Shown here: positions 47,538 through 64,000 of the stretch, one piece after another
How positions within the stretch are numbered: the stretch's first letter is position 1
How the letters are laid out: each line of letters begins with the position of its first letter
NCBI RefSeq assembly: GCF_002005425.1
Contig: NZ_CP019704.1
Span: forward strand, 62,001-126,000
Origin: Polaribacter sp. BM10
GTDB taxonomy: Bacteria; Bacteroidota; Bacteroidia; Flavobacteriales; Flavobacteriaceae
DNA: 64,000 nt
Direction of reading: 5' to 3'
Translations under genes and position numbers: made by a program
The notes under the pieces: model-generated
The model's database searches: none
Told to the model about the DNA's origin: nothing
The model's input: the letters and a program-made list of their open reading frames with translations, nothing else

Positions 47538-50500
47538 CTATTTTCTTAGCAAAGAGAAATTTCCTCTCTTAGAAATGATGGGTTTACTGCTATCCACAGG
47601 AATTAAATTTACCGAATACCAATAACTGCCAGAAGGAAGTATTTTACCATTACTTGTACCATTCCAGCCGTTGCTATCTAAAGGAATTTCGGCTAAAAGT
47701 TTTCCGTATCTATCAAAAATTCTTAGAGAAGTGGCTTTATAAAAAGTATTATTAACACCTTTTATTTGCCACGTATCATTAACTCCGTCTTCATTTGGTG
47801 TAAAAAATTTTGGATACTCTATTAAAGAAACTAAAAGTTTAGCAGTACCACAACCATCTTTATTTTCGACAACAACATTGTAAATTCCTCCTTTAAGATT
47901 AGAAAAAATATTATTTTCTTGAAAAGAACGGATTATGTTGCCATTTTCATCTTCTAGAGCATATTCAAAAGTTTCGTTTATGGTTGGATTTTTCGGAATA
48001 TCAATTTCGATACTTAAACCAGAACTAGAATTTGTGGTATCATCTATAACTTTTACAAAGGCTTGGTCTAATTGGTCGAAACCAGATTTTTGAACTACAA
48101 TCGTTTTAGAATTTTCGCAAATTGTATTGTCTTTACTAAACGCAGTTACTGTATATTTTCCTCCGTCAGAAATTTGTATTGATGTTGAATTTCCACCTAT
48201 TGGTGTTCCATTCTCATTTCTCCAAACGTAATTGTAATCATCTGCAGGATTCTTCACTTCTAAATTATAAGGAATATTTTTAGCGCATATAATTATAGGG
48301 TCGTTTGGTGCTTCACCTTCGACTTCAAACACAGGAATAGTGTTCGTTTTTAAAAAGAGTTTGCCAATTCCTTCACAATTATTATTGTTCTTATTTTTAA
48401 TTTTGATAAAAATAGTTTGATTGTAAGCGTAAGCCGGATCTGAGTTGTTTCTATAGTTTGAGATATCAATTATTGGGTTTACAGCTGCGTTTCTGTCGTC
48501 TGCATTTTTGTAAAATGATACAATTATATCAGATTGAATTGCAGTTGGAAATTTGTTTATTATTTCTTGTCTTGCGGCGCTAAAATTGAAATTTGTAATT
48601 CCGTCTATGTCAGAATTATCAACATTATCATTGCCGTTTATGTCTAAAAAATCATCACAAGATTCAAATGTTTTGTCATAATCTACATCAGTAACATAAG
48701 CTGCATTAATTTCTATTTTAGAAATTGTATAACAATCAAATTCAGAAATTGTACGAACCCAAGCTTCGGCATAACCAGCAGTTACCGGGTAATGTTCTTT
48801 ATCTGTTATTTCTGATGTACCATTAATAGCGTCTGTTTCTGTTTTGTAATATTTAAAACTATGAGTTGAGTTGTTGCTTATATTTATTTCCGCTTCGGTA
48901 AGATTTACTACAGTATTTTCACTCGGATCATCGGCACATTGTAAAATTGTTGCAACCGGATTCAAAATTTCGGGTTTACGATTTACGGTAATTTTTACCG
49001 CATTTGAAGTTACATTACATGCGTTACCGGTTCTCGATAAAATGACTCTAAATTGATGATTATTATAACTTTGTAAAACATTATTAATTTGAAGGTCTTT
49101 AGTTAGTGTGCCGCTATAAATTGTATTGTTACTTAATGTGGTAAAACTACTACCATTGTCTGTAGATAGTTGCCACTCATAAGCATCTGCAGTTGCATCG
49201 ATTGTTAAAATACCTATGGTTTCTTCGCACAATATAAAGTCTTGAAAAGGTATATTTATATTTATAGGAGCAGAGGTTATGTAGTCTAAATCTGGAGATG
49301 TATATCCATCAGAATTATTAATTACTTTACCATTATTATTTACATCAAAAGTTGATGTATCTAGAATTCCGTTATTGTCATTGTCATTAAAACCAGCTTC
49401 AAAAACATCAAAACACGCATCATTATCTGCGTCTAACTCAGTAAAATTAAAGATAGAATCTGCATCTGAATCTAAAATTGTATAATTTATTAGTGTACTA
49501 GATTCTTCTAAGGAGTCCTCTAATCCGTTATTATTAATGTCTGTAAATGTAATTAGAATTCCGTTAGAGTTTATGTTTTTATCATGGTTGGCTTCAGTAG
49601 CATCAAAAATTCCGTCATTATCAGCATCTACATCCAAATAGTTTTTTATGCCATCATTATCGGTATCTAAATTGGTTGTGTTAGAGTTGAAAACATCATC
49701 AATACCATCAGAATTTGTATCAGTATTTAATAAGGTTATTTCTTTACCATAAGCATCAAAAAGATCTGGAATTCCATCGTTATCAGAATCAAGATCAAAT
49801 AGATCTTCTACACCATCATTATCTGAGTCTCTAGAAAAGCATGTAATCGCATAATTACCATTAAAAGTCGAAGCATCTGTATTTGTTGCGGAATGATAAA
49901 AATGAATTTCATTGATTTGATTTGCTACAAATTGAAATGTACTTGCTGTACCAGCAATTGATGTGTTGTATTTAAACTTTATTTCGGAAGCAGAAAATTG
50001 TGTAATTCCAGATTCGTAAATATTATCATTATTTGTATCTACCAATAATTGATTGTCTGGATTTAAGAGTGTGATATTTTTATTTTCTGGTTTAATTTTT
50101 ATAATAAAATATTCATCTTCTTTAACTTGATGAGTTGCCGAAATTGTTTGTTTTAAACTAAAATTTATGTTTTGAGAAAAACTTAATTTAAATTCATTTA
50201 CCGCATTTATATCATTTATTAATGTACTTGTAAAATCACCATTATTAGTACCTGAAAAAGAATTATTAGTATCGCTTTGCATAAGAAAAGACGTTGTAAT
50301 TATGTCTTTAACTGTGCCGTCTTCTAAAATTACGATAGGCGTATCTAGGTTAGAAAGGTTTATGTTGGCGTTGCCAAGAGATTCATCACAATTTAAAATT
50401 CCGTCGTTGTCGATATCTAAATCAATATTATCTATAATTCCGTCACTATCGTAATCATCAGGGCAAATATTTACCAAAATTTCATTTGAAATATATTGGT

Positions 50501-52118
50501 TGTTAGAACAAGTTATTTTTCCTATCAACCTATACTTACCAGGTTCTGAAATTAAAGGTTTGTATGACGAGGCGTTACTTTTAAAATCCCAATTATTTAT
50601 TAGTTCGTTAAAATATTGCCATTCAATTCCACCATCAAAAACAGTTGTATTTGCTGCATTTAAAGTAAGATCGTTTCCTAAGCAATTACCAAGTGAAGAG
50701 ATGTTAACATCAAAATTTATTTCTGGATTAGACGGAAAACCAGAATAAAAACTACCAGAAGAAGCAGCACCATTTTGATTAAAATAAGCGCAATAAAGTT
50801 CTTCGCTACTTTCTATGGATATATTTCCGGTTAAATCGGAGACTTGATAAGTTACATAATCTGTATTTCCATCAACATTAAATGGGCCGGTTGTGTTAAA
50901 ATTAGATATTACTTTAGAGTTTATTTTTAAAGTTGCATTTTTATTAGTTACTATTGTTACACCGCCTGCAAAATCTACATTACCAATACTTTCTATATTT
51001 GGTATATTATCTACCTTACCTCTGCTTTCGCAATTTAAAGGAGGTACAAAAAATAAACCTTGATTTGCTTCACTGTTATTTGCGCCAACGCCTTGGTAAG
51101 CAAAGGCAGGTTTAGAGGTTTCTACAAACATATTACCAAACGTATTGTACTCATCTCCTTCTATAAGAGTATAGTCTCCTTTATCAAGAGTCGTAAATAG
51201 ACCTTCACCATTTATTCTTACCTCTGTATTGTCTTCGTGAGCGACAATTAGAACATTTTCCCAATTATTATTTCCGTCACCTTTTACAAATATATATTCA
51301 CTACCAGTTTTACTGGGAATCATTAATTTTTCGATACCAACAATTTGATCAAAACCATAATCTCTTCCGCCACCGTCATGAAAACTTCCATTCGTTGAAC
51401 CAGAGTTAACAACTATTGGTTTATCAGATTCTATCAGAGCACCAATTAATCCATCTCTATTTATGGTGTTTTCAAAACTATTTGCGGCAACAATATAGCT
51501 TTCGCCTTCATTTAAATTTATAGTAATTGGTAATGTACCGCTATAATTTTTTATTGAAATTCCGGTTGGTATATCAGAAAAAACAACTTTTGTATTATTT
51601 TCTGTAGCCATAACAGATATAAAACTTAAATAATTGTCTTGAGGATTTTGATTCGTAAACATACCGGCTCTAAAGGTTTTTCCTAAAGCAGCATTTCCTT
51701 TACTTACCAATGCGCCCGCTTGCGCGCCACCGCCAGCTAAAACTCTTACAGACACGTAAATTGCATCATTGGCCTCTATAATGTAACCTTTATTGTTTGT
51801 AATTTGACTAGTTGAGGGTGATGCTACAAATAACTGAGTATTACCGGTGCCAATAGGTATTTCTTTTGGATCTGAGTTTGAAACTACACCTTGTAGAATA
51901 GAAGTACTCGGTTGACCAACGGGTATAATCTTATAAGTAACATTTGTGTTACTTGGTGTAGAAATGTATAAATATTGATTTTCTGGATTTGCGTTGCCAA
52001 ACTCGGCACTAGTTAATGGCGGAATAAAGTGCTTTTTACTTAATTGCGCATAGCTATTTTCTACAAGAGTAAAACAGATTGAAAAAAAAAAGATTATTAA
52101 GGTTGTTTTTTTAAACAT
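47538..52118 (-). CDS. Large T9SS type B (gliding motility-associated C-terminal domain) surface protein
   Basis: A 1526-residue secreted protein. After the signal peptide (ends NSYAQ) comes a beta-rich N-terminal half with an IgGFc-binding-like region (VLAGGGAQAGALVSKG). The middle carries many thrombospondin type 3-like calcium-binding repeats: DYDSDGIIDNID, DNDGVEDLFDLDSDNDGIPD, DADNDGIFDATE and others. Then come Ig/PKD-like modules, and a C-terminal CHU_C/type B sorting domain: FFTPNEDGVNDTWQIKG, IFDRYGKLL and GWNGTSNGKILPSGSYWYSV. It is therefore probably exported by the type IX system and displayed or shed. Its ligand is unknown. It stands alone on the minus strand between two non-coding gaps. 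Confidence 0.85.
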   Translation of the reverse strand: MFKKTTLIIFFFSICFTLVENSYAQLSKKHFIPPLTSAEFGNANPENQYLYISTPSNTNVTYKIIPVGQPSTSILQGVVSNSDPKEIPIGTGNTQLFVASPSTSQITNNKGYIIEANDAIYVSVRVLAGGGAQAGALVSKGNAALGKTFRAGMFTNQNPQDNYLSFISVMATENNTKVVFSDIPTGISIKNYSGTLPITINLNEGESYIVAANSFENTINRDGLIGALIESDKPIVVNSGSTNGSFHDGGGRDYGFDQIVGIEKLMIPSKTGSEYIFVKGDGNNNWENVLIVAHEDNTEVRINGEGLFTTLDKGDYTLIEGDEYNTFGNMFVETSKPAFAYQGVGANNSEANQGLFFVPPLNCESRGKVDNIPNIESIGNVDFAGGVTIVTNKNATLKINSKVISNFNTTGPFNVDGNTDYVTYQVSDLTGNISIESSEELYCAYFNQNGAASSGSFYSGFPSNPEINFDVNISSLGNCLGNDLTLNAANTTVFDGGIEWQYFNELINNWDFKSNASSYKPLISEPGKYRLIGKITCSNNQYISNEILVNICPDDYDSDGIIDNIDLDIDNDGILNCDESLGNANINLSNLDTPIVILEDGTVKDIITTSFLMQSDTNNSFSGTNNGDFTSTLINDINAVNEFKLSFSQNINFSLKQTISATHQVKEDEYFIIKIKPENKNITLLNPDNQLLVDTNNDNIYESGITQFSASEIKFKYNTSIAGTASTFQFVANQINEIHFYHSATNTDASTFNGNYAITCFSRDSDNDGVEDLFDLDSDNDGIPDLFDAYGKEITLLNTDTNSDGIDDVFNSNTTNLDTDNDGIKNYLDVDADNDGIFDATEANHDKNINSNGILITFTDINNNGLEDSLEESSTLINYTILDSDADSIFNFTELDADNDACFDVFEAGFNDNDNNGILDTSTFDVNNNGKVINNSDGYTSPDLDYITSAPININIPFQDFILCEETIGILTIDATADAYEWQLSTDNGSSFTTLSNNTIYSGTLTKDLQINNVLQSYNNHQFRVILSRTGNACNVTSNAVKITVNRKPEILNPVATILQCADDPSENTVVNLTEAEINISNNSTHSFKYYKTETDAINGTSEITDKEHYPVTAGYAEAWVRTISEFDCYTISKIEINAAYVTDVDYDKTFESCDDFLDINGNDNVDNSDIDGITNFNFSAARQEIINKFPTAIQSDIIVSFYKNADDRNAAVNPIIDISNYRNNSDPAYAYNQTIFIKIKNKNNNNCEGIGKLFLKTNTIPVFEVEGEAPNDPIIICAKNIPYNLEVKNPADDYNYVWRNENGTPIGGNSTSIQISDGGKYTVTAFSKDNTICENSKTIVVQKSGFDQLDQAFVKVIDDTTNSSSGLSIEIDIPKNPTINETFEYALEDENGNIIRSFQENNIFSNLKGGIYNVVVENKDGCGTAKLLVSLIEYPKFFTPNEDGVNDTWQIKGVNNTFYKATSLRIFDRYGKLLAEIPLDSNGWNGTSNGKILPSGSYWYSVNLIPVDSSKPIISKRGNFSLLRK

Positions 52119-52311: not shown

Positions 52312-53655
52312 ATGTCTGATGATTTTGATTTATTAGAAACCAATTCAACACAAAAAACAGAAAAAGTAGATGTAAACTGGGGGAAAGCTATTGATACCAT
52401 GAAATCGAAACTTTCTCAAGAAGAAGATCCAGAAAAACGTCAAAAGATCTTAAATGCAACTTTAGATGATGTTGTAGATATGGCAAAAGAAGACAGAACT
52501 TCTTTACTAGATGCTATTAAAGATTTAACAGATTATCAAGACGAAGTAGGTATTAAGTTCGAAGGCTTTTCGGCATTAAACGAAGCAGAACAAAAAGTAA
52601 TAGACGATGCCCAAAAAGCATTAGAAAGAGCAAGAGTAGAGTTAGAAGACGCACAAAATAAACCAGATACTTGGTGGAATAATTTATGGGGAAGAAAATC
52701 TAAAATTAAAAAAGAAGAAATGGAATTTGCAGCAGCAGAAAAAGTACGTGCTGGTGCAGACAATAAAGCAAAAGCACTATTTCAGCAACGTATAGAAAGT
52801 GCAGATATACAAACACTTTTAGGAGAACTTTCTTTTAAATCTCAAGCAGCGGTTACACGTTTAAAAAACAGAGAAGTAGAAATAAAAGAAGTAGAAGAAA
52901 AGCTAAAAACTGCCATTGTAGAAGCTTCTAAAAACCATACCAAAGCTTTAGAAAAAAAGAAAGAGGTAGAAGACAAGCTAGAAGAACAATACGCATTGTT
53001 AAAACAAGCAAGACAAGAATTAGATGAAATTGCAGACAAACAATCTACAGCATACTCAGAAGCAATAGGTAAAGTAACAGCAATAGAACAAAAAGTAGAA
53101 GAGTTAGAAGGCCTTAAAAATGCTTATACAACACTTGCAGCATCTAAAGATAGCTTTGTACATAAACACAATTTAACAATTAAAGTTTTAACTTCTTTGC
53201 GCTCTAATTTACAAACGCATAGAGCAAAATTAAAAAGTGATACCGAAGAAAGATTAAAATATTACGATGGTTATATTGTAGCATTAAAAGCAAGAACAGA
53301 TCAAGAATTTGCAGCAATTTTAGAGCATTTAGGTGTAAAAACAGATGAACATATTGGTGAAACTTTAGCATCTATGCACTCGGCAAGTGCAAGAGCTCGT
53401 CAAGACATGATGGATAATATTCCGGTTCACGAAAAAGTAATGAAAGGTGTTTATAGCACATATGCAGAAGCATTGCATGAAATTAGAGAGAAAGATGTAG
53501 ACATTCAAAAAAACTTTGCAGACAGATATGGTATCGATATGAAAGAAATTTTCGAAGACTACTACAAAGCAGATGCAAATGCACCAACAGGAGACGGTGC
53601 AACACCAGCAGAAACTCCAAAACCAACAAGTTCTAACGACGATATGTTGTCTTAA
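52312..53655 (+). CDS. Long coiled-coil protein of unknown function, first gene of AAA+ cluster
   Basis: A 447-residue soluble, highly charged, almost entirely helical protein. Residues about 85-300 carry long heptad stretches (EAEQKVIDDAQKALERARVE, KEVEEKLKTAIVEA, KKKEVEDKLEEQY), interrupted by a Trp-rich break (PDTWWNNLWGRK, about 117-128). A second helical domain (about 300-420) contains YYDGYIVALKARTDQEF and VHEKVMKGVYSTYAEAL; the tail is Pro/Thr/Ser-rich. There is no signal peptide or membrane helix. I do not recognise the family; long coiled coils of this sort are sometimes labelled microtubule-binding-like or compared with TelA, but I cannot support either. It heads a co-directional run that includes an AAA+ ATPase. 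The ATG has no clear RBS. Confidence 0.75.
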   Translation: MSDDFDLLETNSTQKTEKVDVNWGKAIDTMKSKLSQEEDPEKRQKILNATLDDVVDMAKEDRTSLLDAIKDLTDYQDEVGIKFEGFSALNEAEQKVIDDAQKALERARVELEDAQNKPDTWWNNLWGRKSKIKKEEMEFAAAEKVRAGADNKAKALFQQRIESADIQTLLGELSFKSQAAVTRLKNREVEIKEVEEKLKTAIVEASKNHTKALEKKKEVEDKLEEQYALLKQARQELDEIADKQSTAYSEAIGKVTAIEQKVEELEGLKNAYTTLAASKDSFVHKHNLTIKVLTSLRSNLQTHRAKLKSDTEERLKYYDGYIVALKARTDQEFAAILEHLGVKTDEHIGETLASMHSASARARQDMMDNIPVHEKVMKGVYSTYAEALHEIREKDVDIQKNFADRYGIDMKEIFEDYYKADANAPTGDGATPAETPKPTSSNDDMLS

Positions 53656-53663
53656 AAAAATAA

Positions 53664-53754
53664 GGGCGTTTCCCCGATGGAAAATCGGGGTCAGGCTTTT
53701 CATTGTATCTTTTTATCGTACCTCAAAAAAGGATGCCATTACAATCCTTAACGC
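53664..53754 (+). repeat. Dispersed structured repeat, copy B
   Basis: Second copy of the element at 767-860, in the same orientation. GCGTT (53666-53670) pairs with AACGC (53750-53754). The first hairpin is CCCCGAT (53672-53678) with ATCGGGG (53684-53690), sequence-unrelated to that of copy A but again perfect. The second is formed by ATCTTTTT and AAAAAAGGAT, closed by GGC/GCC. The blocks CTTTTCATTGTATC, GGATGCCATT and CAATC are shared nearly base for base. It starts 8 nt after the coiled-coil gene stop and ends 56 nt before the next start. Confidence 0.8.
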
Positions 53755-53810
53755 AGGCTTGTTTACCAAAACAAATCAATTTATAAGCTTTAAGAATATC
53801 AAATTAAAAC

Positions 53811-54854
53811 ATGATTACAACACCTTTAGATTCTGCAGTACTAGACTCAAAAGAACAATATGTTTTTTATCATAAAATGGTAGATTTTGTTTTAAAAGAA
53901 CTCATTGTAAGTGTACAACAAGAAAAACTTTGCACACAACAAGAGTTGCTAATTTTTAAACAATACTCAGATTTACTTTTATATTCTATAGAAGCCATGC
54001 GTATAAAGTATATGTACGATGAGGAAGACAATATGAAAGTAGATTTAACAGATTCTGGTTTTCCTAATTATTTAGAATTTAGATTTTTATACAACGATCT
54101 AGAATTAAGAAATGAGTATTTAGATAAATTTACAAGTGTAGACACTTTAAAAGAATCTTTTTTAAATACGCTTTTAGTTAAAAAAGAACCAATAAGAAGG
54201 TTAGATTTATTTAAAGCAGCTTCTTTAGTCTACTATTCATCCGTAGATAAAAAATATATATTTAACAGATTTGTACAAGGTAAAATTTTAGAAGCACCAA
54301 GAGATGCAAATTATCAATACTTAACAAGTTGGAGTTTTTATGACGTTAGCCAAAACAGGCCTTTTATTTGTTATATGTACTTTAATTACAAAGGTAATAA
54401 TGCTTTAAAAGATAGAGATAAAATCTATCAGACTTTAAAAGAAACAGCAGATAGAGAAATGTCTTTAGATACAATGGCATATAATATCGACAGAAAGTTA
54501 GTCGATTTAGAACCAAAACATATCAAAAGAATAGATTTAGGACCCTTGCATAATGTTTTTGCAAAAGATGAAAATAAAATTACACATGCAATTTTAAGCG
54601 CAATTGCAAGAAAAGAAATTCCGTTAGAATCTTATGCTTTATCTTTAAAAATCGATGAGGTTTTTTCTGGAGAAACCTTTACAGAAGGCGGATTTTTCTC
54701 AAAACAAACCATGCAAAAATGGAGCGAAGTTATTCAACAAAAATACGTTTTTGCACCGCATAGAATTATTCAGCTTTTACACAATACAGCACCAGAAGTA
54801 TTGCACAAACTAGCTAGAAACCCAATAGAATTAGCTAGTTTAAAAATGCAATAG
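53811..54854 (+). CDS. Conserved-looking protein of unknown function in AAA+ cluster
   Basis: A 347-residue soluble protein without signal peptide or membrane helix. The N-terminal third is helical (FYHKMVDFVLKELI, LLLYSIEAMRIKYMYD). The middle shows mixed strands (NRPFICYMYFNYKGN), and the C-terminal third is helical with FAPHRIIQLLHNTAPEVLHKL. I recognise no catalytic motif and no family. It lies between the coiled-coil gene (155 nt, containing repeat copy B) and the AAA+ ATPase gene (57 nt) on the same strand, so it is likely part of the same functional set. Codon use matches its neighbours, so there is no sign of recent transfer. Confidence 0.7.
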   Translation: MITTPLDSAVLDSKEQYVFYHKMVDFVLKELIVSVQQEKLCTQQELLIFKQYSDLLLYSIEAMRIKYMYDEEDNMKVDLTDSGFPNYLEFRFLYNDLELRNEYLDKFTSVDTLKESFLNTLLVKKEPIRRLDLFKAASLVYYSSVDKKYIFNRFVQGKILEAPRDANYQYLTSWSFYDVSQNRPFICYMYFNYKGNNALKDRDKIYQTLKETADREMSLDTMAYNIDRKLVDLEPKHIKRIDLGPLHNVFAKDENKITHAILSAIARKEIPLESYALSLKIDEVFSGETFTEGGFFSKQTMQKWSEVIQQKYVFAPHRIIQLLHNTAPEVLHKLARNPIELASLKMQ

Positions 54855-54911
54855 AAATTTAAAAATACAAATTGCTAACTGTTATAGAATCATAGTAAAA
54901 TTAGAAAAAGA

Positions 54912-56870
54912 ATGCAGCACAACTCAACATTTCCTATAAAACAAAACGAATTAGATATGCTTCGCGATGAAGCTTCTGGTTATTTAAAAAGTATACAATG
55001 GGAACAAAGTAATAGAGCAAAAAATAAAGATAAAGACGCAAAAGACAGCTCTATTTTATTGTATTTATCAAGAGCAAATTCTGGTAGTAACGTAGAAATT
55101 ACATCAGTTTCTAAAACAATTTTAGGTTTAAAGAAAAGGCTTTTGCCAGATTCGATTGCAATTCCGGTTTATTTAAATCAAACATTATATGCTGTACAAG
55201 AAGGTTTAACATTAGGAATTTGGATAAAAGACAGTTATTACGATTCTTCTGGGTTATCATCTTTAAACGAAAGAAAAGCGGCGTTAGATTCAACAGGTAA
55301 AAGAGCCTATGAAAGTAAAATGCAAACTGCAACTGCGTTTCAGTTGTATGCAACTTCGTATAAAATTTTACACGATTTAAAACCACATGCTTCTGATGAT
55401 TTATCTGTAATGAAGCAAAAATTTGCTGGGATTCCAGAAGTGTCATTTTTATCACCATTAAAAGGAATTGCATGTGCTTTATTTTATTTTGATAAATATC
55501 TTGGGCACCCAGAAATTGTAAAAACAGATAAAGATGTTATCGATTTTACAGTTGTGTTTTTTGAGGCATTAATAGATGAAATTCAGTTAAGAAAAAGCAC
55601 TTTAGAGTACACAGAAACAATTGTTGATAGAACTTATAAATTAGAAAAAACAGATTTTGCCGTTTCTGGTTGGGAGAATGTTTTTTCTGGAACCGCAAAA
55701 AGTGTTGAGTTTAATAAAATTAAATTCGAACAAATTGTTGGTAATAAAGATGCAAAGCATTTTGCACGTAGGTTAACAGAAAGAATGTTAAGTTACGATT
55801 TTGATGCAAAGAAAAATCCGTTTCAAGAATTGGGTGGTTTTATGCCTGTTTTTATGGGTTATGGAATACCAGGGACAGGTAAAAGTATGTTAATTGCTGC
55901 CATTGCAACTCGATTAAAAGAGCATGCAGACAATTTAGATATTCCGTTTTTATTTCATCCAATGCCAGATACTTTAATTAGTACATTTCAAGGTGGTTCT
56001 GCAGAAAAAATGGTAGAATGGATGAAACCTATGCAAGACCCAACTAAATTAATTTTTGCGCCAATTGATGACGCCGAAAATAACTTGCAAGAAAGAACCT
56101 CGCAAGGCGTTTCTGCTGGTGTTAAAGAAGTAATTGGTGTTTTCTTGCGTTATACAGAAGGTGCTTATGCTGTAAATTATGGGAATTCGTCTATAGGTCT
56201 TTTTACCAATTTACCAGAAATGTTAGACAAAGCCGTAATTTCTAGAGTACAAGGTAGGTTTAAAATTGATGGTGCAAGAACAGAAAATGACTTTTTAGAT
56301 CAAGATTATATTTGGTGGAAAAAATTTGAAAAAACAATTCCGGATTTTGTGAATATGCAAAATCCAGAAAATTATCAATATTTAAAAGATCAAGGTCTAA
56401 CAAAAAATATGGGCGAAATTCTTAGTTCTGTAGAAAAACCATCCGAAGAAAGAGTTTTAGAAGCTTATGACAAAGCTGTGCAAAAGCATAGTACTAATCA
56501 GCATTTATTTTTTGCAAGTTTGTATAAAGAAATTCAGCAAATATTTCCATTTTTCTCATCTAGAGATGTTAGAAACATTCAATCTGCAATTTCTTTGCGT
56601 TTAACAGATTTTGATTTGGAAGAAGATTGGTTCGAAAATCCAGAAATCTATTTCAAAAAGAATTACGAAACCAAATTTGGCATGTTGCAAGAATTGATGA
56701 AAAGCAATATGAAAGGTTTAGATTTTTCTGAAATTAGAAGACAAGAAGTTGTAAGATATTTAGATAATGTGGCAACGATTGCAGACACCGATTTTAAACG
56801 AAAAGTTGATGCTCGTGTAAATCAATTAAACATAGATTTACAAGCAAGAAAATCTTTTGGTAATGAGTAA
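54912..56870 (+). CDS. AAA+ ATPase, centre of the unknown cluster
   Basis: A 652-residue protein. The N-terminal 270 residues are mixed helical and unrecognised. The AAA+ core (about 270-480) has Walker A GYGIPGTGKSM (Lys324), Walker B LIFAPIDDAEN (Asp386-Asp387, DD instead of the usual DE), sensor 1 in SIGLFTNLPE and a probable arginine finger in AVISRVQGRF. The 170-residue C-terminal part is helical and includes FPFFSSRDVRNIQSAI. It is not one of the classical FtsH, Lon, Clp, RuvB or MoxR proteins. The stop overlaps the Nudix start. It probably remodels a partner encoded next to it. Confidence 0.82.
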   Translation: MQHNSTFPIKQNELDMLRDEASGYLKSIQWEQSNRAKNKDKDAKDSSILLYLSRANSGSNVEITSVSKTILGLKKRLLPDSIAIPVYLNQTLYAVQEGLTLGIWIKDSYYDSSGLSSLNERKAALDSTGKRAYESKMQTATAFQLYATSYKILHDLKPHASDDLSVMKQKFAGIPEVSFLSPLKGIACALFYFDKYLGHPEIVKTDKDVIDFTVVFFEALIDEIQLRKSTLEYTETIVDRTYKLEKTDFAVSGWENVFSGTAKSVEFNKIKFEQIVGNKDAKHFARRLTERMLSYDFDAKKNPFQELGGFMPVFMGYGIPGTGKSMLIAAIATRLKEHADNLDIPFLFHPMPDTLISTFQGGSAEKMVEWMKPMQDPTKLIFAPIDDAENNLQERTSQGVSAGVKEVIGVFLRYTEGAYAVNYGNSSIGLFTNLPEMLDKAVISRVQGRFKIDGARTENDFLDQDYIWWKKFEKTIPDFVNMQNPENYQYLKDQGLTKNMGEILSSVEKPSEERVLEAYDKAVQKHSTNQHLFFASLYKEIQQIFPFFSSRDVRNIQSAISLRLTDFDLEEDWFENPEIYFKKNYETKFGMLQELMKSNMKGLDFSEIRRQEVVRYLDNVATIADTDFKRKVDARVNQLNIDLQARKSFGNE

Positions 56871-57447
56871 TTTAAGAGTAAAAAATATAGAAAAAACTGT
56901 TTTATCAGACAATTATTACACGCTTTTTAAATTTAAATTTGATTATCAAAAATCTGATGGTAGTTGGGTTAAACCAATGAGAGAAGTTTATGAACGTGGT
57001 CATGGTGCAGGAATTTTACTGTATAACACAAAAAAAAAGACAGTAATTTTAATCAAGCAATTTCGTTTTCCAACGTTTGTACATGATAATGAAGATGGTT
57101 TTTTAGTTGAAATTCCGGCAGGATTATTAGATCAAGATAATCCTGAACAATGTATTATACGAGAAACCGAAGAAGAAGTTGGTATTCGATTAAAGTCTGT
57201 TAAAAAAGTTTACGAAGGGTATTCATCTCCAGGTGTTTTAACAGAGAAAATGCACTTTTTTGTGGCAGAATATTCTGATGATATGAAAGTAAGCGAAGGT
57301 GGTGGCATAGCATCAGAAAACGAAGATATAGAAGTTTTAGAAATACCGTTTACAGCAGCTATTGATATGCTAAACAACGGTAAAATTGAAGATACAAGAA
57401 CAATTGTATTGCTACAATATGCTCAAATTCATAATTTGTTAAATTAA
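56863..57447 (+). CDS. Nudix hydrolase, NudK-like (nucleotide-sugar/ADP-ribose pyrophosphatase type)
   Basis: A 194-residue Nudix enzyme. I start at the ATG at 56863, which overlaps the AAA+ stop by 8 nt. The Nudix helix reads AGLLDQDNPEQ then RETEEEVGI, with the spacing of Escherichia coli NudK. The core metal residues (RE..EE.G) are kept, while one upstream Glu is Asn. The downstream YSSPGVLTEKMHFFVAEY block is typical of the GDP-mannose/ADP-sugar pyrophosphatase group. Overlap with the ATPase gene implies coupled translation. The substrate is not fixed by sequence. Confidence 0.88.
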   Translation: MSNLRVKNIEKTVLSDNYYTLFKFKFDYQKSDGSWVKPMREVYERGHGAGILLYNTKKKTVILIKQFRFPTFVHDNEDGFLVEIPAGLLDQDNPEQCIIRETEEEVGIRLKSVKKVYEGYSSPGVLTEKMHFFVAEYSDDMKVSEGGGIASENEDIEVLEIPFTAAIDMLNNGKIEDTRTIVLLQYAQIHNLLN

Positions 57448-57448
57448 A

Positions 57449-58684
57449 ATGCAAAAACTAAAAGACGCAAAATTATTTAGAAACGAACTAATTTCTGTGA
57501 ACGGAAAATTAGTAGAGCGCTATAATAAATGTTTAGAAAAATTAGGTTTTTCTAAAACGGCGTTAACCTCTTTTTCTATTGATGGTTTAGGTTGGAGTCC
57601 AGAGATTGCAGAAGAAAAAAAAGAGCAATTTTATTTAAATAATGGCGAGGCAAATACGCACGCAATTATTATTTCGCCTTTACAAAAAGGTTTACCAATT
57701 TACAATCCTTTTCATTCTTTTGACAAAGAATTAATGAAGGTAGTTTTTAAAAAACATGGCGATTTTATTAAAGATATTACTAGAGATTCTGCTATATGCT
57801 TAGATTTTGATCAAAAAATAGATGTTTTTTACGAGCCTTTAGATGTTTTAAAATATAATGATATTGTAATAAAATTTCATTTAATAAATAATTTAAATAA
57901 AGCTAAAGAGAACCAATTAAAATTAATTCATACTTTTAGTTTAGACAATAATTTTATAGACGAAAATATTCATAAGCAGTTATTAGCATCTGCTAAAAAA
58001 TATGGCGATTTACGTGAAAGAAATCTTATTTTAGAAGAAATTAAATACACTACAGATTCTTTTTACACGAAAGCATTTGGCGGAATTTTTGTGTTGAAAG
58101 ATTTTGTAAAACCAATTTTAATTTTTCAAGAAAAAGAAACATACAATCAAGCGATAAACGATACTGTGCATGATATTTTAATGTATCATATTTCTCATGA
58201 TGAGTTAATAGATAAGCTTTTAAGTTATGACGTTATTGAGGCAGATTTAGAAGAAGAATTGCATCAAAAGAAATACGAAAGAATTAAGAGATATACGCTT
58301 TCGAAACATTTGATGTCGCCAACACATTTGGTAAAAGATATTTTACAAAACCACATTCTTTTTAAGAGTTATTTAAATAAAATTGATATTTCTGCGAGAA
58401 AAAAAGTAATGGGATTAGAGTTGTTTTTAGAAAAAAAGAAAACTTCTAAAGCCATAAAGGCAAAAGATTTTTTAGACAAAGATTTGTTTGTTTCGTTGCA
58501 CAAACCGCATTCTTCGTTAAAACCAAATCACCAAGATTTAATTTGGTATTTATTGGTAAACATTGCGCCAAAAGATGTGTTGTTTTTATATTGGTATGAC
58601 AAAGAACAATTTTTTAGCACATTTAAAACATTAGAAAGCTCAACCCAAGATTGGGTAATAGAAACTATTTTAAATAATTTTTAA
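57449..58684 (+). CDS. Protein of unknown function (DUF6638-like)
   Basis: A 411-residue soluble protein beginning 1 nt after the Nudix stop. It opens with MQKLKDAKLFRNELI and contains GLGWSPEIAEE, HAIIISPLQKGLPIYNP and a helical C-terminal half with RIKRYTLSKHLMSPTHLV and LKPNHQDLIWYLLVN. It resembles what is labelled DUF6638 in Flavobacteriia; I cannot confirm this without a search. No catalytic motif is obvious. Spacing places it in one transcript with the AAA+ ATPase and Nudix genes. Confidence 0.7.
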   Translation: MQKLKDAKLFRNELISVNGKLVERYNKCLEKLGFSKTALTSFSIDGLGWSPEIAEEKKEQFYLNNGEANTHAIIISPLQKGLPIYNPFHSFDKELMKVVFKKHGDFIKDITRDSAICLDFDQKIDVFYEPLDVLKYNDIVIKFHLINNLNKAKENQLKLIHTFSLDNNFIDENIHKQLLASAKKYGDLRERNLILEEIKYTTDSFYTKAFGGIFVLKDFVKPILIFQEKETYNQAINDTVHDILMYHISHDELIDKLLSYDVIEADLEEELHQKKYERIKRYTLSKHLMSPTHLVKDILQNHILFKSYLNKIDISARKKVMGLELFLEKKKTSKAIKAKDFLDKDLFVSLHKPHSSLKPNHQDLIWYLLVNIAPKDVLFLYWYDKEQFFSTFKTLESSTQDWVIETILNNF

Positions 58685-58707
58685 ACAAAACATCTAACAC
58701 AAATAAT

Positions 58708-59229
58708 ATGACACTAGAACTTTTAATATTTATTGCAGCTATTTTATTTGGTATTATTTTATTTTGGAGAGAATCTCAAGGAAATAAGTTGTATCGTTTT
58801 TTTAATAAAATGATGAATTCTAAAGAACTGCAGATGTCTATTACGAACAAAAAAGGCTTTATCTATCAACAAAACTTTCTTTTAAGACTTGTATATATAA
58901 GCACGTTTTTCTTAGTTTTAGTTTTAATTACACGATTTATAATTCCGATAGATATTACTACCGTTTCGTTATTTACTTCGATGATTTTTGGTACGTTATT
59001 AGGAACTTATATTGCTGGTTTTATTTTTAAATCTTCTGCAATTATAGAAGAACAATCAGAAAATTTAGGAGATACTTTTAATGATGTTCTAGAAAAAGGA
59101 AAAGATTTTGTGAAAGATTTAAAAACAGAAGAACCTGTTGCTATTAAAAAAGCACAAGAAGAAGTTAAAGATAATAAAGTAGAAGAAAAAAGTGCTAGAG
59201 AAAGATTGAAAGACAAAGGTTTGTTATAG
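58708..59229 (+). CDS. Small membrane protein with charged coiled tail
   Basis: A 173-residue protein with three hydrophobic segments (about 3-19, 52-75 and 80-105), then a strongly charged C-terminal helical tail (about 110-173) with SENLGDTFNDVLEKGKDFVKDL and EEKSARERLKDKGLL. I recognise no family. It follows the DUF6638-like gene after 23 nt and precedes the larger membrane protein by 37 nt. It could anchor the soluble members of the cluster to the membrane; this is inference. Confidence 0.68.
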   Translation: MTLELLIFIAAILFGIILFWRESQGNKLYRFFNKMMNSKELQMSITNKKGFIYQQNFLLRLVYISTFFLVLVLITRFIIPIDITTVSLFTSMIFGTLLGTYIAGFIFKSSAIIEEQSENLGDTFNDVLEKGKDFVKDLKTEEPVAIKKAQEEVKDNKVEEKSARERLKDKGLL

Positions 59230-59266
59230 ATTCTGTAAAAAAATACATAAAATTAAAATTTAAAAA

Positions 59267-60952
59267 ATGATTAAGAATTATTGGAGTAAAGGCCCAAGGC
59301 AAAAAAAAATAGTTGTGATTTTAAGTATCATAACTCTTGCTTTGTTGTTTTTTTTAAGAGATGATTATCAGCCAGCATTATTGTTTGTTAGAAAGTTCAT
59401 TTTTATCATATTGTTGTGTTTTACAATTTTATTTTTTAGTCTTAGAACATTTAGAAAATCTGCTAGTACAGGTAAAAGAATTGGTATTTTAGTTTTTTTA
59501 ACTGTTTTTTTCGCAGTTGTTTATTATGTAGGTTGGAATTTAAAATTCTACGATTATATGAAAACCTATAATGTTTATAATAGTTTACAAAGAATCGAAA
59601 TTGTAGAGCTTCCTTTAACCCAAAATGAAAGAATTCAGCCTTTAAGAAATATATTTTCGATGGCAAATGAATCCGTAGGAGAAACCAAAGATGTTTCTTT
59701 ACCACATTTGGTTAGAGTTGATGGTCATAACCAATGGACAATGGCAATTCAACCAACAGAAAAGTATGTTTGGCAAGGAATTAAAGACAATACAGAAGAG
59801 GTTTTTTCTGTTTCGAGTACAACTCCTTTTCCTCGTTTTTCATCAGAAAATAGAATTCCTGTAACTTTTTCAATTGGCGAATCTTTAAAATTTAGTAGAA
59901 ATACTTACAACGCTGTTGTGCAAAGATTAAATCCGTGGATGCTTTTTAATTACGAACCAAGCGATACTTATTACATGAAAAATGACAAAGGCGCATGGGT
60001 ACAAGTTGTAAGTTTAATTAAATGGAAAGGTTTTTTCTTTCCGTACCCTACATTTGGTGGTGTAATGGTTGTAGAAAATGGAGAACATGATTTTAACGAT
60101 TATCTAGAAAGAATTACAATTGGTAAAGGAATTTTTATTTCTCCAGATGAAATGAAAAATTACGAATACTTAACAAAGCAAAATACGCTGTCAGAAAAAG
60201 TATCTCGTTTACAAGCAGAAAGTTTAAAGTTTTTAGGAGGATTTAGAGATCCTTTGCCGTGGAATATGAAAACGGCAGTTAAAATTCCGGACTTACCAGA
60301 CGATCAAAATCAGCAACCATTTGTAACAGATTTCGATTTTTCTGATACAAAAACGGGTGCTTTTAGTGGTTTATATCATTGGTTTGGGCTAGAACCTGTT
60401 GGAGACGAAAGAACAAGCTTAACATTCAGTGTTTTTATTCCTGCGGATGGAACCGATAAATTATATTATTACGATCATGCTTCAAAAAAACAAGGTTATG
60501 CGGGTGTTTCTGCAATGCCTTTAAAAGTAATAGAATCTAGAAAAGAATATGATTGGTCTGCAAATAAACCAGTAGAATTTAGACCTTATATTAAAAATAT
60601 TGCGGGTAAAAAGAGAATGTTTTTTCTAAGTACCATTTCGGCGATTAAAAAAGAAAATGCTCAGTTTGATGGATCTGCAACACCCGATTTAGCATTAATT
60701 GATAGTGAATATAGAGATGTTATTTGGATTGATGCAAAAAAACCAAGTACATGGAATGAAGAGGTTTATATTCAATTAAACGAAGCTTGGAGAGCAAGTG
60801 AAAACGGAAATATTTACTTCGAAAAAGAACAAACAATTTTAGAGAAAAATAAATCTATTTTAGACTCGATAAAGCTAATTTCAAAAAAAGAATTAGATTC
60901 TAAAAAAATTAAAGCACTACAAAAAAAGATAGATTCAATAAAAATGAATTAA
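59267..60952 (+). CDS. Membrane-anchored protein of unknown function, last of the cluster
   Basis: A 561-residue protein. Three hydrophobic helices lie at the N-terminus (about 15-33, 40-60 and 72-90, with a basic loop between). They are followed by a roughly 440-residue domain rich in beta strands, probably extracytoplasmic: LPHLVRVDGHNQWTMAIQP, KWKGFFFPYPTFGGVMVVE and VTDFDFSDTKTGAFSG. The C-terminus is a short charged coiled segment (about 515-561). No enzyme motif is visible. It follows the small membrane protein on the same strand. The symporter gene after it has its own promoter-like sequence, so this is probably the end of the unit. Confidence 0.68.
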   Translation: MIKNYWSKGPRQKKIVVILSIITLALLFFLRDDYQPALLFVRKFIFIILLCFTILFFSLRTFRKSASTGKRIGILVFLTVFFAVVYYVGWNLKFYDYMKTYNVYNSLQRIEIVELPLTQNERIQPLRNIFSMANESVGETKDVSLPHLVRVDGHNQWTMAIQPTEKYVWQGIKDNTEEVFSVSSTTPFPRFSSENRIPVTFSIGESLKFSRNTYNAVVQRLNPWMLFNYEPSDTYYMKNDKGAWVQVVSLIKWKGFFFPYPTFGGVMVVENGEHDFNDYLERITIGKGIFISPDEMKNYEYLTKQNTLSEKVSRLQAESLKFLGGFRDPLPWNMKTAVKIPDLPDDQNQQPFVTDFDFSDTKTGAFSGLYHWFGLEPVGDERTSLTFSVFIPADGTDKLYYYDHASKKQGYAGVSAMPLKVIESRKEYDWSANKPVEFRPYIKNIAGKKRMFFLSTISAIKKENAQFDGSATPDLALIDSEYRDVIWIDAKKPSTWNEEVYIQLNEAWRASENGNIYFEKEQTILEKNKSILDSIKLISKKELDSKKIKALQKKIDSIKMN

Positions 60953-62966: not shown

Positions 62967-63332
62967 ATGAAAACAGCAAAAATTTTATATTATATTTCTA
63001 CAGGATTATTAACATTATTAATGCTTTTTTCTGCAGGAATGTACTTTTTTAATCATGAAGAAGTAGCCAGCATGTTTACCAACTTTGGATATCCAACTTA
63101 TATTATTTATCCGTATGCTATTGCAAAAATTTTAGGTTTAATTGCGATATGGTTTTTTACAAAAAGTGTAATTAAAGAATGGGCCTATGCTAGTTTTTTC
63201 TTTGCTTTTATTTTAGCCTTTTTTGCCCATGTAATGATTAATGATGGCGAGCAAACGGGTGCAATTGTAGCTATAATTCTTTTAATTACTTCTTACATCA
63301 CTTCAAAAAAAATAAATCATGACAAACTCTAA
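62967..63332 (+). CDS. DoxX-like family membrane protein
   Basis: A 121-residue protein with four hydrophobic helices (about 7-26, 43-62, 70-90 and 95-112) and the pattern MLFSAGMYFFNHEEVASMFTNFGYP, which fits the DoxX-like family. Some DoxX relatives take part in redox or thiol-stress modules; the role here is unproven. The OsmC-family gene overlaps its 3' end by 14 nt, so the two are coupled. Confidence 0.82.
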   Translation: MKTAKILYYISTGLLTLLMLFSAGMYFFNHEEVASMFTNFGYPTYIIYPYAIAKILGLIAIWFFTKSVIKEWAYASFFFAFILAFFAHVMINDGEQTGAIVAIILLITSYITSKKINHDKL

Positions 63333-63705
63333 AGTTACTTTATCAAATAAAAATTATTTAGCAGAAGCAAAAGCTAGAAATCATTTTTTAACTCTAGATG
63401 AACCAGTTGTTGATGGAGGAGATGATAACGGACCAACACCCGTAGAATATTTACTAACTGCAATTGGTGGTTGTGTAGCCATGACTTTAAGAATGTACTC
63501 TGAAAGAAAAGGTTGGGATCTAGGTGAGATTGATGTGAAAGTTACTCAGGTAATAGAAAATAATGAAAAATCTTTAACAGAAGAAATCTCTTTTGAAAAA
63601 GAAATTACAGAAGATCAAAAAAAGAGATTACTTGTAATTGCAGGAAAATGTCCGGTAGCAAAAATGGTTAAAGGAGAAACAAGAATAGATTCAAAAATTA
63701 TTTAA
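63319..63705 (+). CDS. OsmC family peroxiredoxin-like protein
   Basis: A 128-residue OsmC/Ohr-fold protein. The two redox cysteines are in the GGCVAMTLR helix (about residue 54) and AGKCPVAKM near the C-terminus (about 113). A conserved TPVEYLLTAIGGC precedes the first Cys. Proteins of this family reduce organic hydroperoxides or have related thiol chemistry. Its ATG lies inside the DoxX-like gene, 14 nt before that stop. A flavin reductase gene follows after 8 nt. Confidence 0.9.
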   Translation: MTNSKVTLSNKNYLAEAKARNHFLTLDEPVVDGGDDNGPTPVEYLLTAIGGCVAMTLRMYSERKGWDLGEIDVKVTQVIENNEKSLTEEISFEKEITEDQKKRLLVIAGKCPVAKMVKGETRIDSKII

Positions 63706-63713
63706 AAATAAGT

Positions 63714-64000
63714 ATGAAAAAAATATTAGCATTTGCAGGTAGTACAAGTTCTACATCAATAAATAAACAGTTAGCTACTTTTGCAGCAAAAAATTTAGAA
63801 AACTCTACTTTTGATGTGATCGATTTAGCAACTTTTAAAGTACCTGTTTATAGTGAAGACGAAGAAAAAAATGGTTTTCCAGAAGATATTAAAAGCTTTA
63901 CAACTAGCTTAGATAGTTATGATGGATTTATAGTTTCTTTAGCAGAGCATAATGGTTCTTACGCCGCTGCTTTTAAAAATATTTTCGATTGGAGTTCTAG
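63714..64000 (+). CDS. NADPH-dependent FMN reductase family protein, N-terminal part (3' end outside window)
   Basis: The first 95 residues of a flavodoxin-fold protein, cut by the window end. It starts MKKILAFAGSTSSTSINKQLA, where GSTSSTSINKQL is the FMN phosphate-binding loop, and contains LAEHNGSYAAAFKNIFDW, the second flavin-contact block of the NADPH-dependent FMN reductase family. It is 8 nt after the OsmC stop and probably co-transcribed with DoxX and OsmC. Confidence 0.88.
   Translation, partial: MKKILAFAGSTSSTSINKQLATFAAKNLENSTFDVIDLATFKVPVYSEDEEKNGFPEDIKSFTTSLDSYDGFIVSLAEHNGSYAAAFKNIFDWSS

Follow-up and report, generated by a model that had tools for sequence, protein, structure and literature searches.

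What kind of system, if any, is encoded by seven adjacent genes of Polaribacter sp. BM10 that bring together an AAA ATPase, a coiled-coil protein, a Nudix hydrolase and two membrane proteins? The genes lie within positions 52312-60952 of a 64,000-nt stretch of DNA (the window; contig NZ_CP019704.1), in a genome of 3.25 Mb that consists of a single contig. An original prediction, made from the letters of the DNA, had taken the seven for a possible membrane-associated machine. We find that six of them almost certainly form one functional system: the genes for the coiled-coil protein (the coil), a 347-amino-acid (aa) protein, the ATPase, a DUF6638 protein and two membrane proteins of 173 and 561 aa. 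Judged from sequence comparison, this system is a conserved module of the first four genes with lineage-specific membrane partners, which are the 173-aa and 561-aa proteins in flavobacteria and DUF2333 proteins in Sinorhizobium and Shinella. The seven genes are as follows.

52312-53655, + strand: coiled-coil protein, core gene 1; 447 aa, homologues in Vibrio and S. meliloti
53811-54854, + strand: 347-aa protein, core gene 2; AF2 model, homologues in Vibrio and S. meliloti
54912-56870, + strand: classical-type AAA ATPase, core gene 3; 652 aa, Pfam and PDB profile matches
56857-57447, + strand: NudK/ADP-ribose-type Nudix hydrolase, optional passenger; 196 aa from a TTG start, likely start ATG 56863
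57449-58684, + strand: DUF6638 protein, core gene 4; 411 aa, Pfam match
58708-59229, + strand: inner-membrane protein, flavobacterial partner; 173 aa, hydropathy scan
59267-60952, + strand: 561-aa membrane protein, flavobacterial partner; hydropathy scan and co-occurrence

The list of open reading frames (ORFs) agrees with the original prediction in placing seven genes here, all on the + strand and with short gaps or overlaps. The spacer between the coil and 347-aa genes is 155 nt and that between the 347-aa and ATPase genes 57 nt. The ATPase and Nudix genes overlap by 14 nt if the TTG start of the Nudix ORF is used, or by 8 nt from the in-frame ATG at 56863, and the gaps from the Nudix gene through the DUF6638 and 173-aa genes to the 561-aa gene are 1, 23 and 37 nt. 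A promoter and terminator scan of the locus gave counts not usefully above those of shuffled sequence. Pfam domains were found in three of the seven ORFs (AAA, NUDIX and DUF6638); the claim that only the ATPase and the Nudix enzyme are recognisable falls one short, DUF6638 being a Pfam family too.

A pattern-based scan of genome contigs from 84,980 species retrieved at least 507 confirmed ATPase relatives, of which the best 80, all flavobacterial as judged by similarity or record title, were analysed. The closest named relatives among these 80 are Polaribacter, with 88-93% ATPase identity. The six genes for the coil, the 347-aa protein, the ATPase, DUF6638, the 173-aa and the 561-aa proteins are all present in the same order and on the same strand in 75/80 loci, some of which have a gene cut at a contig end. 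The other five are truncated, one of them (L024) where the fetched flank stops and the rest where the contig does. DUF6638 lies about 8 kb from the ATPase or Nudix gene in two loci. Across 71 sets (those of 70 loci and of the window) the pairwise divergences of the six proteins correlate with one another (rho 0.39-0.69), and one flanking ORF family was found again in 59/80 loci; nothing points to a recent island, in line with what had been supposed.

Co-occurrence across genomes, for which kinship between genomes is ignored throughout, was also tight. Of 249 Flavobacteriaceae genomes searched, 76 contain the ATPase and 77 the 561-aa protein, and 75 of the 78 having either have both (hypergeometric value 2.7e-60). 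In 73 of these 75 the 561-aa gene is downstream of the ATPase gene, on the same strand and within 12 kb. Among 395 evenly drawn Bacteroidota genomes, the ATPase profile matched five, all in the family of the window, and DUF6638 matched the identical five; an earlier single-sequence ATPase search had found 4/296 Bacteroidota genomes.

More distant loci were drawn from a plasmid collection of 72,556 records. A tblastn search with the window ATPase retrieved ten records (Vibrio, Sinorhizobium, Shinella and Rhizobium) at 28-32% identity; judged by length, several of these seem to be chromosomes deposited as plasmids. The same ten were returned by the S. meliloti ATPase, the Vibrio ATPase, the S. 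meliloti DUF6638 protein and an S. meliloti 382-aa protein of the 347-aa type, and the coil query returned them with one more. Six of the ten were analysed (CP099927, CP090106, CP069303, CP140867, CP015514 and CP104131; for a seventh, CP062152, the annotation alone was used), and the order coil, 347-aa, AAA, DUF6638 is kept in all six, which comprise two Vibrio, two Sinorhizobium, one Shinella and one R. leguminosarum. Identity between the flavobacterial and the Vibrio or Rhizobiaceae quartets is about 20-30%. BLAST matches of the proteobacterial homologues have E-values of 2e-14 and 3e-16 for the 347-aa protein and 2e-12 and 3e-33 for DUF6638; those of the coil (Vibrio 2e-9, S. meliloti 5e-5) are weaker evidence because of coiled-coil composition. 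The AAA and DUF6638 genes of S. meliloti are separated by a DUF559 gene and an insertion sequence. A DUF2333 membrane-protein gene lies directly 3' of DUF6638 in Sinorhizobium and Shinella, while no DUF2333 homologue was found in the R. leguminosarum TP16 locus.

The gene order is thus shared by 75/80 flavobacterial loci and, for four genes, by six proteobacterial records, beyond what chance would give, and it is not confined to close relatives, the quartet being present in Alpha- and Gammaproteobacteria. The original prediction was borne out in describing a conserved set that combines an ATPase and a coiled-coil protein with two membrane proteins, both of which have predicted transmembrane helices. 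Its wording of a conserved flavobacterial set holds for the conservation and is too wide for the distribution: judged by its ATPase, the set is borne by about 30% of the searched Flavobacteriaceae (76/249), by 5/395 Bacteroidota and, as the quartet, by another phylum in some Vibrio and Rhizobiaceae.

The Nudix gene stands apart from this pattern, although the original prediction had counted it among the parts; that it is a necessary one is not supported. Its product has a NUDIX domain (Pfam E 2.2e-11), belongs to subfamily TIGR00052 (YffH/AdpP) with 165.6 bits against a cut-off of 79.55, and falls just below the cut-off of NudK PRK15009 (218.7 bits against 234). The gene is present in 52/75 complete loci and 54/80 overall, always between AAA and DUF6638 and often overlapping the ATPase gene; 23/75 complete loci lack it, as do the six proteobacterial ones. 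Its divergence correlates weakly with that of the other proteins (rho 0.11-0.43 over 52 sets; 0.12 with the ATPase), and the Nudix proteins fall into six clusters with between-cluster mean identities of 43-58%. Considering this weak co-divergence and the six divergent clusters, the Nudix gene is best seen, on such comparisons, as a passenger or a replaceable accessory. In the Polaribacter relatives L008, L009 and L011-L014 the Nudix type is about 45% identical to the cluster of the window.

The ATPase carries an AAA domain (Pfam E 7.4e-9) with Walker A GYGIPGTGKS at 316-325, pore loop FQG at 359-361, Walker B IDD at 385-387, a sensor N433 and arginines R445 and R449. In an alignment of 85 sequences (80 loci, the window and four proteobacterial proteins), N433, R445 and R449 are conserved in 85/85. 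Walker A reads GYGIPGTGKS in 81/81 flavobacterial and GDGxPGTGKT in 4/4 proteobacterial sequences, and pore loop 1, placed by alignment to a VCP-like ATPase, reads FQG in 81/81 and YQG in 4/4. The second region of homology was aligned to the VCP-like ATPase as well, and by analogy R445 and R449 would be arginine fingers. In most AAA proteins the classical Walker B motif ends in D-E; here it reads D-D in 85/85 sequences of both phyla, a conserved, unusual pair. Profile searches of the PDB matched a VCP-like ATPase (E 4.5e-10, summed over two domains), Rpt4 and an i-AAA protease domain (about 6e-7; i-AAA 6.4e-7), PAN (4e-6), and Pch2 and Vps4 (about 6e-6); katanin and Vps4 structures matched at about 6e-6 to 7e-5. 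Outside the PDB search, FtsH matched very weakly (E 0.018 and 0.09). No protease domain was found in the Pfam scan, and no relative of the roughly 250 N-terminal residues in Pfam or PDB searches. By its motifs, the protein is classed as a classical AAA ATPase with an aromatic pore loop. Its profile fits a substrate-threading ring, apparently not clearly nearer any one classical AAA type.

Of the core proteins, none but the ATPase, through its AAA domain, clearly resembles a protein whose structure is known. The flavobacterial coils share an N-terminal DDFDLLE (67/77 sequences) and a C-terminal acidic-LL motif (76/77), and both ends are absent from the four aligned proteobacterial coils. No match to the coil was found by PDB sequence profile at E up to 0.01; it gives a weak SMC match (E 0.031), as many coiled coils do. 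PDB sequence profiles of the 347-aa and DUF6638 proteins yielded no match at E up to 10. Structures were predicted from flavobacterial rows only. The AF2 model of the 347-aa protein (pLDDT 88.7) has a helical N-terminal half and a C-terminal alpha/beta domain (residues 164-315), to which the structural comparison effectively applies. In the model, the order of strands and helices in this domain fits the T-fold pattern beta-beta-alpha-alpha-beta-beta plus one extra helix, and the 50 structural matches listed are mostly T-fold enzymes (uricase, DHNA, GTP cyclohydrolase). The best Z of 7.4, over 121 residues at a root-mean-square deviation of 5.1, is within the stated background of the tool, and the best Foldseek match, a virus-like particle, has E 0.076. 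A T-fold is therefore a possible reading of the modelled C-terminal domain. The window DUF6638 protein matches PF20343 at E 1.9e-29 (103.3 bits, cut-off 27), and the Vibrio and S. meliloti proteins are also above the Pfam cut-off. Its model (pLDDT 91.6) found no match in the PDB or the viral library (best Foldseek E 0.069; best VIA Z 4.3 over 41 residues), a result that does not make the fold new. We know of no described function of DUF6638.

Transmembrane helices and topology were assigned by simple hydropathy and the positive-inside rule. The 561-aa protein has three such helices in the window and in 72/72 relatives, and its large C-terminal domain is predicted to be periplasmic. The 173-aa protein has three in the window and two to five in 76 relatives, and its topology is uncertain because the count varies this much by a crude method. 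It ends in SARxRxKDKG in 76/77 sequences, the exception reading TARQRLKDKG, and this tail is predicted to be cytosolic. It may be conjectured that the acidic coil tails and the basic 173-aa tail bind each other in flavobacteria. With E up to 10, the PDB sequence profile of the 561-aa protein gave no match other than MraY at E 6.8. Pfam searches with the alignments of both membrane proteins gave sub-threshold matches only, most commonly DUF4199 (8/9 members in the 561-aa alignment, best E 1.1e-5), a likeness presumably due to the transmembrane helices.

DUF2333 occurs in other surroundings as well. In R. leguminosarum pSK03 (L124 7989-10343) a coil relative and DUF2333 are 150 bp apart, in a gene context similar to that of the quartet (choline transporter genes, thymidine kinase and formate-THF ligase); no match for the ATPase, the 347-aa protein or DUF6638 was found on that plasmid, which alone was covered. 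DUF2333 genes also lie near genes for sigma-70-family and anti-sigma factors (L125 4821-9487; L126 6256-8747; L127 4946-9493), in two Skermanella species and one Rhodobacteraceae plasmid, and the Skermanella genes adjoin YqhA-family genes. SMc02733 is listed as a ChvI-bound fragment (PMC3687685). To judge by tag numbers it may lie in the S. meliloti locus, a guess that is not used here as evidence.

What might such a system do? The reading we prefer, tentatively and somewhat short of an even chance, is that a threading ATPase remodels a coil assembly at the inner membrane, with the lineage-specific membrane proteins as its tie to the periplasm. The ATPase would act as a hexameric threading AAA ring, with the 347-aa and DUF6638 proteins as its putative adaptors. 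The coil would polymerise on the inner face of the cytoplasmic membrane, and the ATPase would pull on the coil assembly, leading to its disassembly or recycling. Through its conserved cytosolic tail the 173-aa protein might anchor or recruit the core module, and the 561-aa protein, or DUF2333, could extend the link into the periplasm. The mode of action would resemble that of Vps4 on ESCRT-III, without detected membership in that family, and the system would serve to maintain or remodel the inner membrane or the envelope. We infer this role, which the original prediction had tentatively put as stress or envelope maintenance, from the membrane partners and from the position of DUF2333 near sigma-70/anti-sigma genes and, in Skermanella, YqhA. 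In its most specific form, the proposal is a trans-envelope remodelling machine of Gram-negative bacteria that works like ESCRT-III/Vps4 and is assembled from unrelated parts: a classical AAA ring that takes apart a coil polymer not of the PspA type, a membrane protein whose tail provides the tether, coupling to a large periplasmic domain, and two adaptors, of which DUF6638 has a fold unmatched in the PDB. That version we regard as improbable.

Several points weigh against remodelling of a coil by the ATPase, or against a fixed set of parts. Polymerisation of the coil is assumed, and to our knowledge no interaction, activity or phenotype has been described. Compared with PspA_IM30, the coil was rejected as a PspA (hhalign probability 5.5), in alignments of seven coil and ten Bacteroidota PspA sequences, shallow enough for very remote kinship to escape. 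With a D-D Walker B, hydrolysis could be slow or different, and the better single domain of the VCP-like match reaches only E 9.5e-4. DUF2333 as a relative of the 561-aa protein was likewise rejected, with no profile support (probability 0.3), so that the periplasmic link between lineages is only an analogy. The Vibrio quartet is followed by mfd, with no membrane gene directly after it, and the pSK03 coil, which shares only 32% identity with the S. meliloti coil, may be a paralogue. Natural splits of the locus point the same way. The 561-aa gene occurs without an ATPase match in 2/77 genomes: G541 (99% complete), where it is beside a Nudix gene, and G544 (87% complete), where the stretch read has the 173-aa and 561-aa genes only. 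In G479 the coil, 347-aa and AAA genes are together and the 561-aa gene is 0.85 Mb off; two 19-kb stretches, one around each part, showed no homologue of DUF6638 or the 173-aa protein. These three genomes indicate that not every part is obligatory or linked.

Other splits are of the same kind. The ATPase occurs without the 561-aa protein in one genome (G535, 73% complete), and in G513 the two genes are on different contigs. The stretch read of G605 has the AAA, DUF6638, 173-aa and 561-aa genes, with no coil or 347-aa homologue at E 1e-3. Judging by gene content, parts of the set can be lost or moved. In favour of the preferred reading, the way the locus divides, in G479 and pSK03 among others, suggests two modules, one an engine (coil, 347-aa, AAA) and the other made of membrane proteins, and DUF6638 would stand between them.

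An alternative that turns the relation of the parts around is that the ATPase acts on membrane proteins, extracting, folding or assembling those of the 561-aa or DUF2333 type as FtsH or Msp1 would, with the coil as a static scaffold. The co-occurrence of the 561-aa and ATPase genes (75/78), the i-AAA protease domain profile together with the very weak FtsH matches, and the coil relative that stays with DUF2333 where the locus has no ATPase would all suit it. However, the ATPase has no protease domain, the membrane partners change from phylum to phylum while the coil is in the quartet everywhere read, and the Vibrio quartet has no membrane gene directly after it. We consider this alternative unlikely, though not negligible. 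A cytoskeletal or chromosome-linked machine, in which the coil forms filaments or resembles SMC arms and is severed or moved by the ATPase, would account for the long coiled coil, its weak SMC match and the Vps4/katanin structure matches. The tight flavobacterial linkage to two membrane proteins and the lack of a DNA-binding domain in the Pfam scan speak against it and make it quite improbable.

The notion of an anti-phage or conflict system draws on the PADLOC IetA match of the window ATPase (E 3.8e-6), the TRIP13 match of the S. meliloti ATPase (1e-5) and the patchy presence in Flavobacteriaceae. The IetA and TRIP13 profiles, however, cover the AAA core alone, and in the seven genes neither Pfam nor PADLOC showed a partner of the IetS, HORMA or CD-NTase kind. 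The flanking family in 59/80 loci and the correlated divergence do not favour defence either; the pattern-based scan of viral contigs found no relative, and all ten plasmid-collection records with the ATPase are typed non-mobilizable. We give a defence role very little credence. Tried directly, a defence identity was rejected, PHROGs giving weak ATPase matches (best 1.5e-5) and five phage records weak AAA-core matches. A nucleotide-signalling system centred on the Nudix enzyme would explain why this gene occupies the same slot in 52/75 complete loci, often overlapping the ATPase gene, but it is hard to credit for a gene missing from 23/75 and the six proteobacterial loci, with a rho of 0.12 to the ATPase and six divergent clusters in the slot. 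That the genes are unrelated and held together by inherited synteny alone is scarcely believable: in many loci conservation extends to neighbours of the core, and single genes insert within the cluster, but the proteobacterial quartet order and the cross-genome co-occurrence contradict it, while inserts come and go.

The surroundings of the set vary. The preceding gene (47538-52118, - strand) encodes a 1526-aa protein with a signal-like start and a C-terminal FTPNEDGVNDTW-type motif, which we take for a type IX secretion sorting domain; four Polaribacter loci (L008, L009, L011 and L013) have homologues upstream. The gene after the 561-aa gene is a sodium:solute symporter by Pfam; among the 80 relative loci no homologue of it was reported at E 1e-4. 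Further downstream (window 63319-63998) are ORFs that are NAD(P)H-reductase-like and, we presume for one of them, OsmC-like. In 52/80 relatives the coil is preceded, at a distance of about 5 kb, by an ORF family that matches the reductase by eye, so the surroundings of the core seem rearranged in the lineage of the window. A family of small proteins (23 ORFs, always on the + strand, in loci within L008-L087) sits either between the 347-aa and AAA genes (13 ORFs) or in the gap from DUF6638 to the 173-aa gene (10 ORFs), and its members resemble four-helix-bundle/23S-rRNA-IVP proteins; other single genes also occupy various gaps between core genes in relative loci. One further feature, found by a genome repeat search, is outside the machine:

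53655-53765, no strand: intergenic dispersed repeat with a hairpin

It has 15 genome matches including itself at E up to 0.001 and is, we assume, probably a REP-like element of flavobacteria. The RNA fold signal between the coil and 347-aa genes (z -2.7) is attributed to this repeat, which is located there.

How does the set compare with known systems? Pch2/TRIP13 and IetA share its AAA core and differ in that the profile matches are weak. We take the SSR/TGR motif before the last helices of the ATPase to resemble the motif of the Pch2/TRIP13-IetA family; no HORMA or IetS partner was found. In IetAS defence the partner is an adjacent subtilisin-like protease, IetS, and there is no protease domain in eight window genes by Pfam and no IetS match in seven by PADLOC. 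TelA is a helical protein of about 360 aa found in bacterial stress operons. As TelA (PF05816), the coil was rejected at an hhalign probability of 0.4, with the same seven coil sequences and four of TelA, a depth at which very remote kinship could again escape. The window genome has no match to the TelA or PspA family. In ESCRT-III/Vps4 (Cdv) the partners differ and the coil has no PspA profile match, and the ATPase profile matches VCP-like, Rpt4 and PAN at least as well as Vps4. The proposed way of working is known in kind, and no membership in ESCRT-III, TelA or IetAS is apparent from these comparisons. As predicted, the set appears undescribed as far as literature searches reach, most subscription journals lying outside them; the same searches gave no match for the name DUF6638.

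The nearest comparison is with PspA/Snf7 operons. According to a 2024 survey of PspA systems, PspA/Snf7 genes stand beside classical AAA ATPases, and ATP-dependent membrane remodelling has been proposed for them (PMC11237479), so bacterial coil/AAA remodelling machines are not a new idea. The likeness lies in a coiled-coil protein with an AAA ATPase, in some operons with membrane proteins; the words DUF6638 and DUF2333 are absent from its main text (PMC11237479). The four-gene module is compact and common to phyla, which makes its function testable by deletion in common laboratory strains. If the six genes do serve membrane remodelling, two protein families would be open to structural work, and the set would add a further kind of coiled-coil/AAA membrane machine to the PspA and Snf7 types of bacteria.

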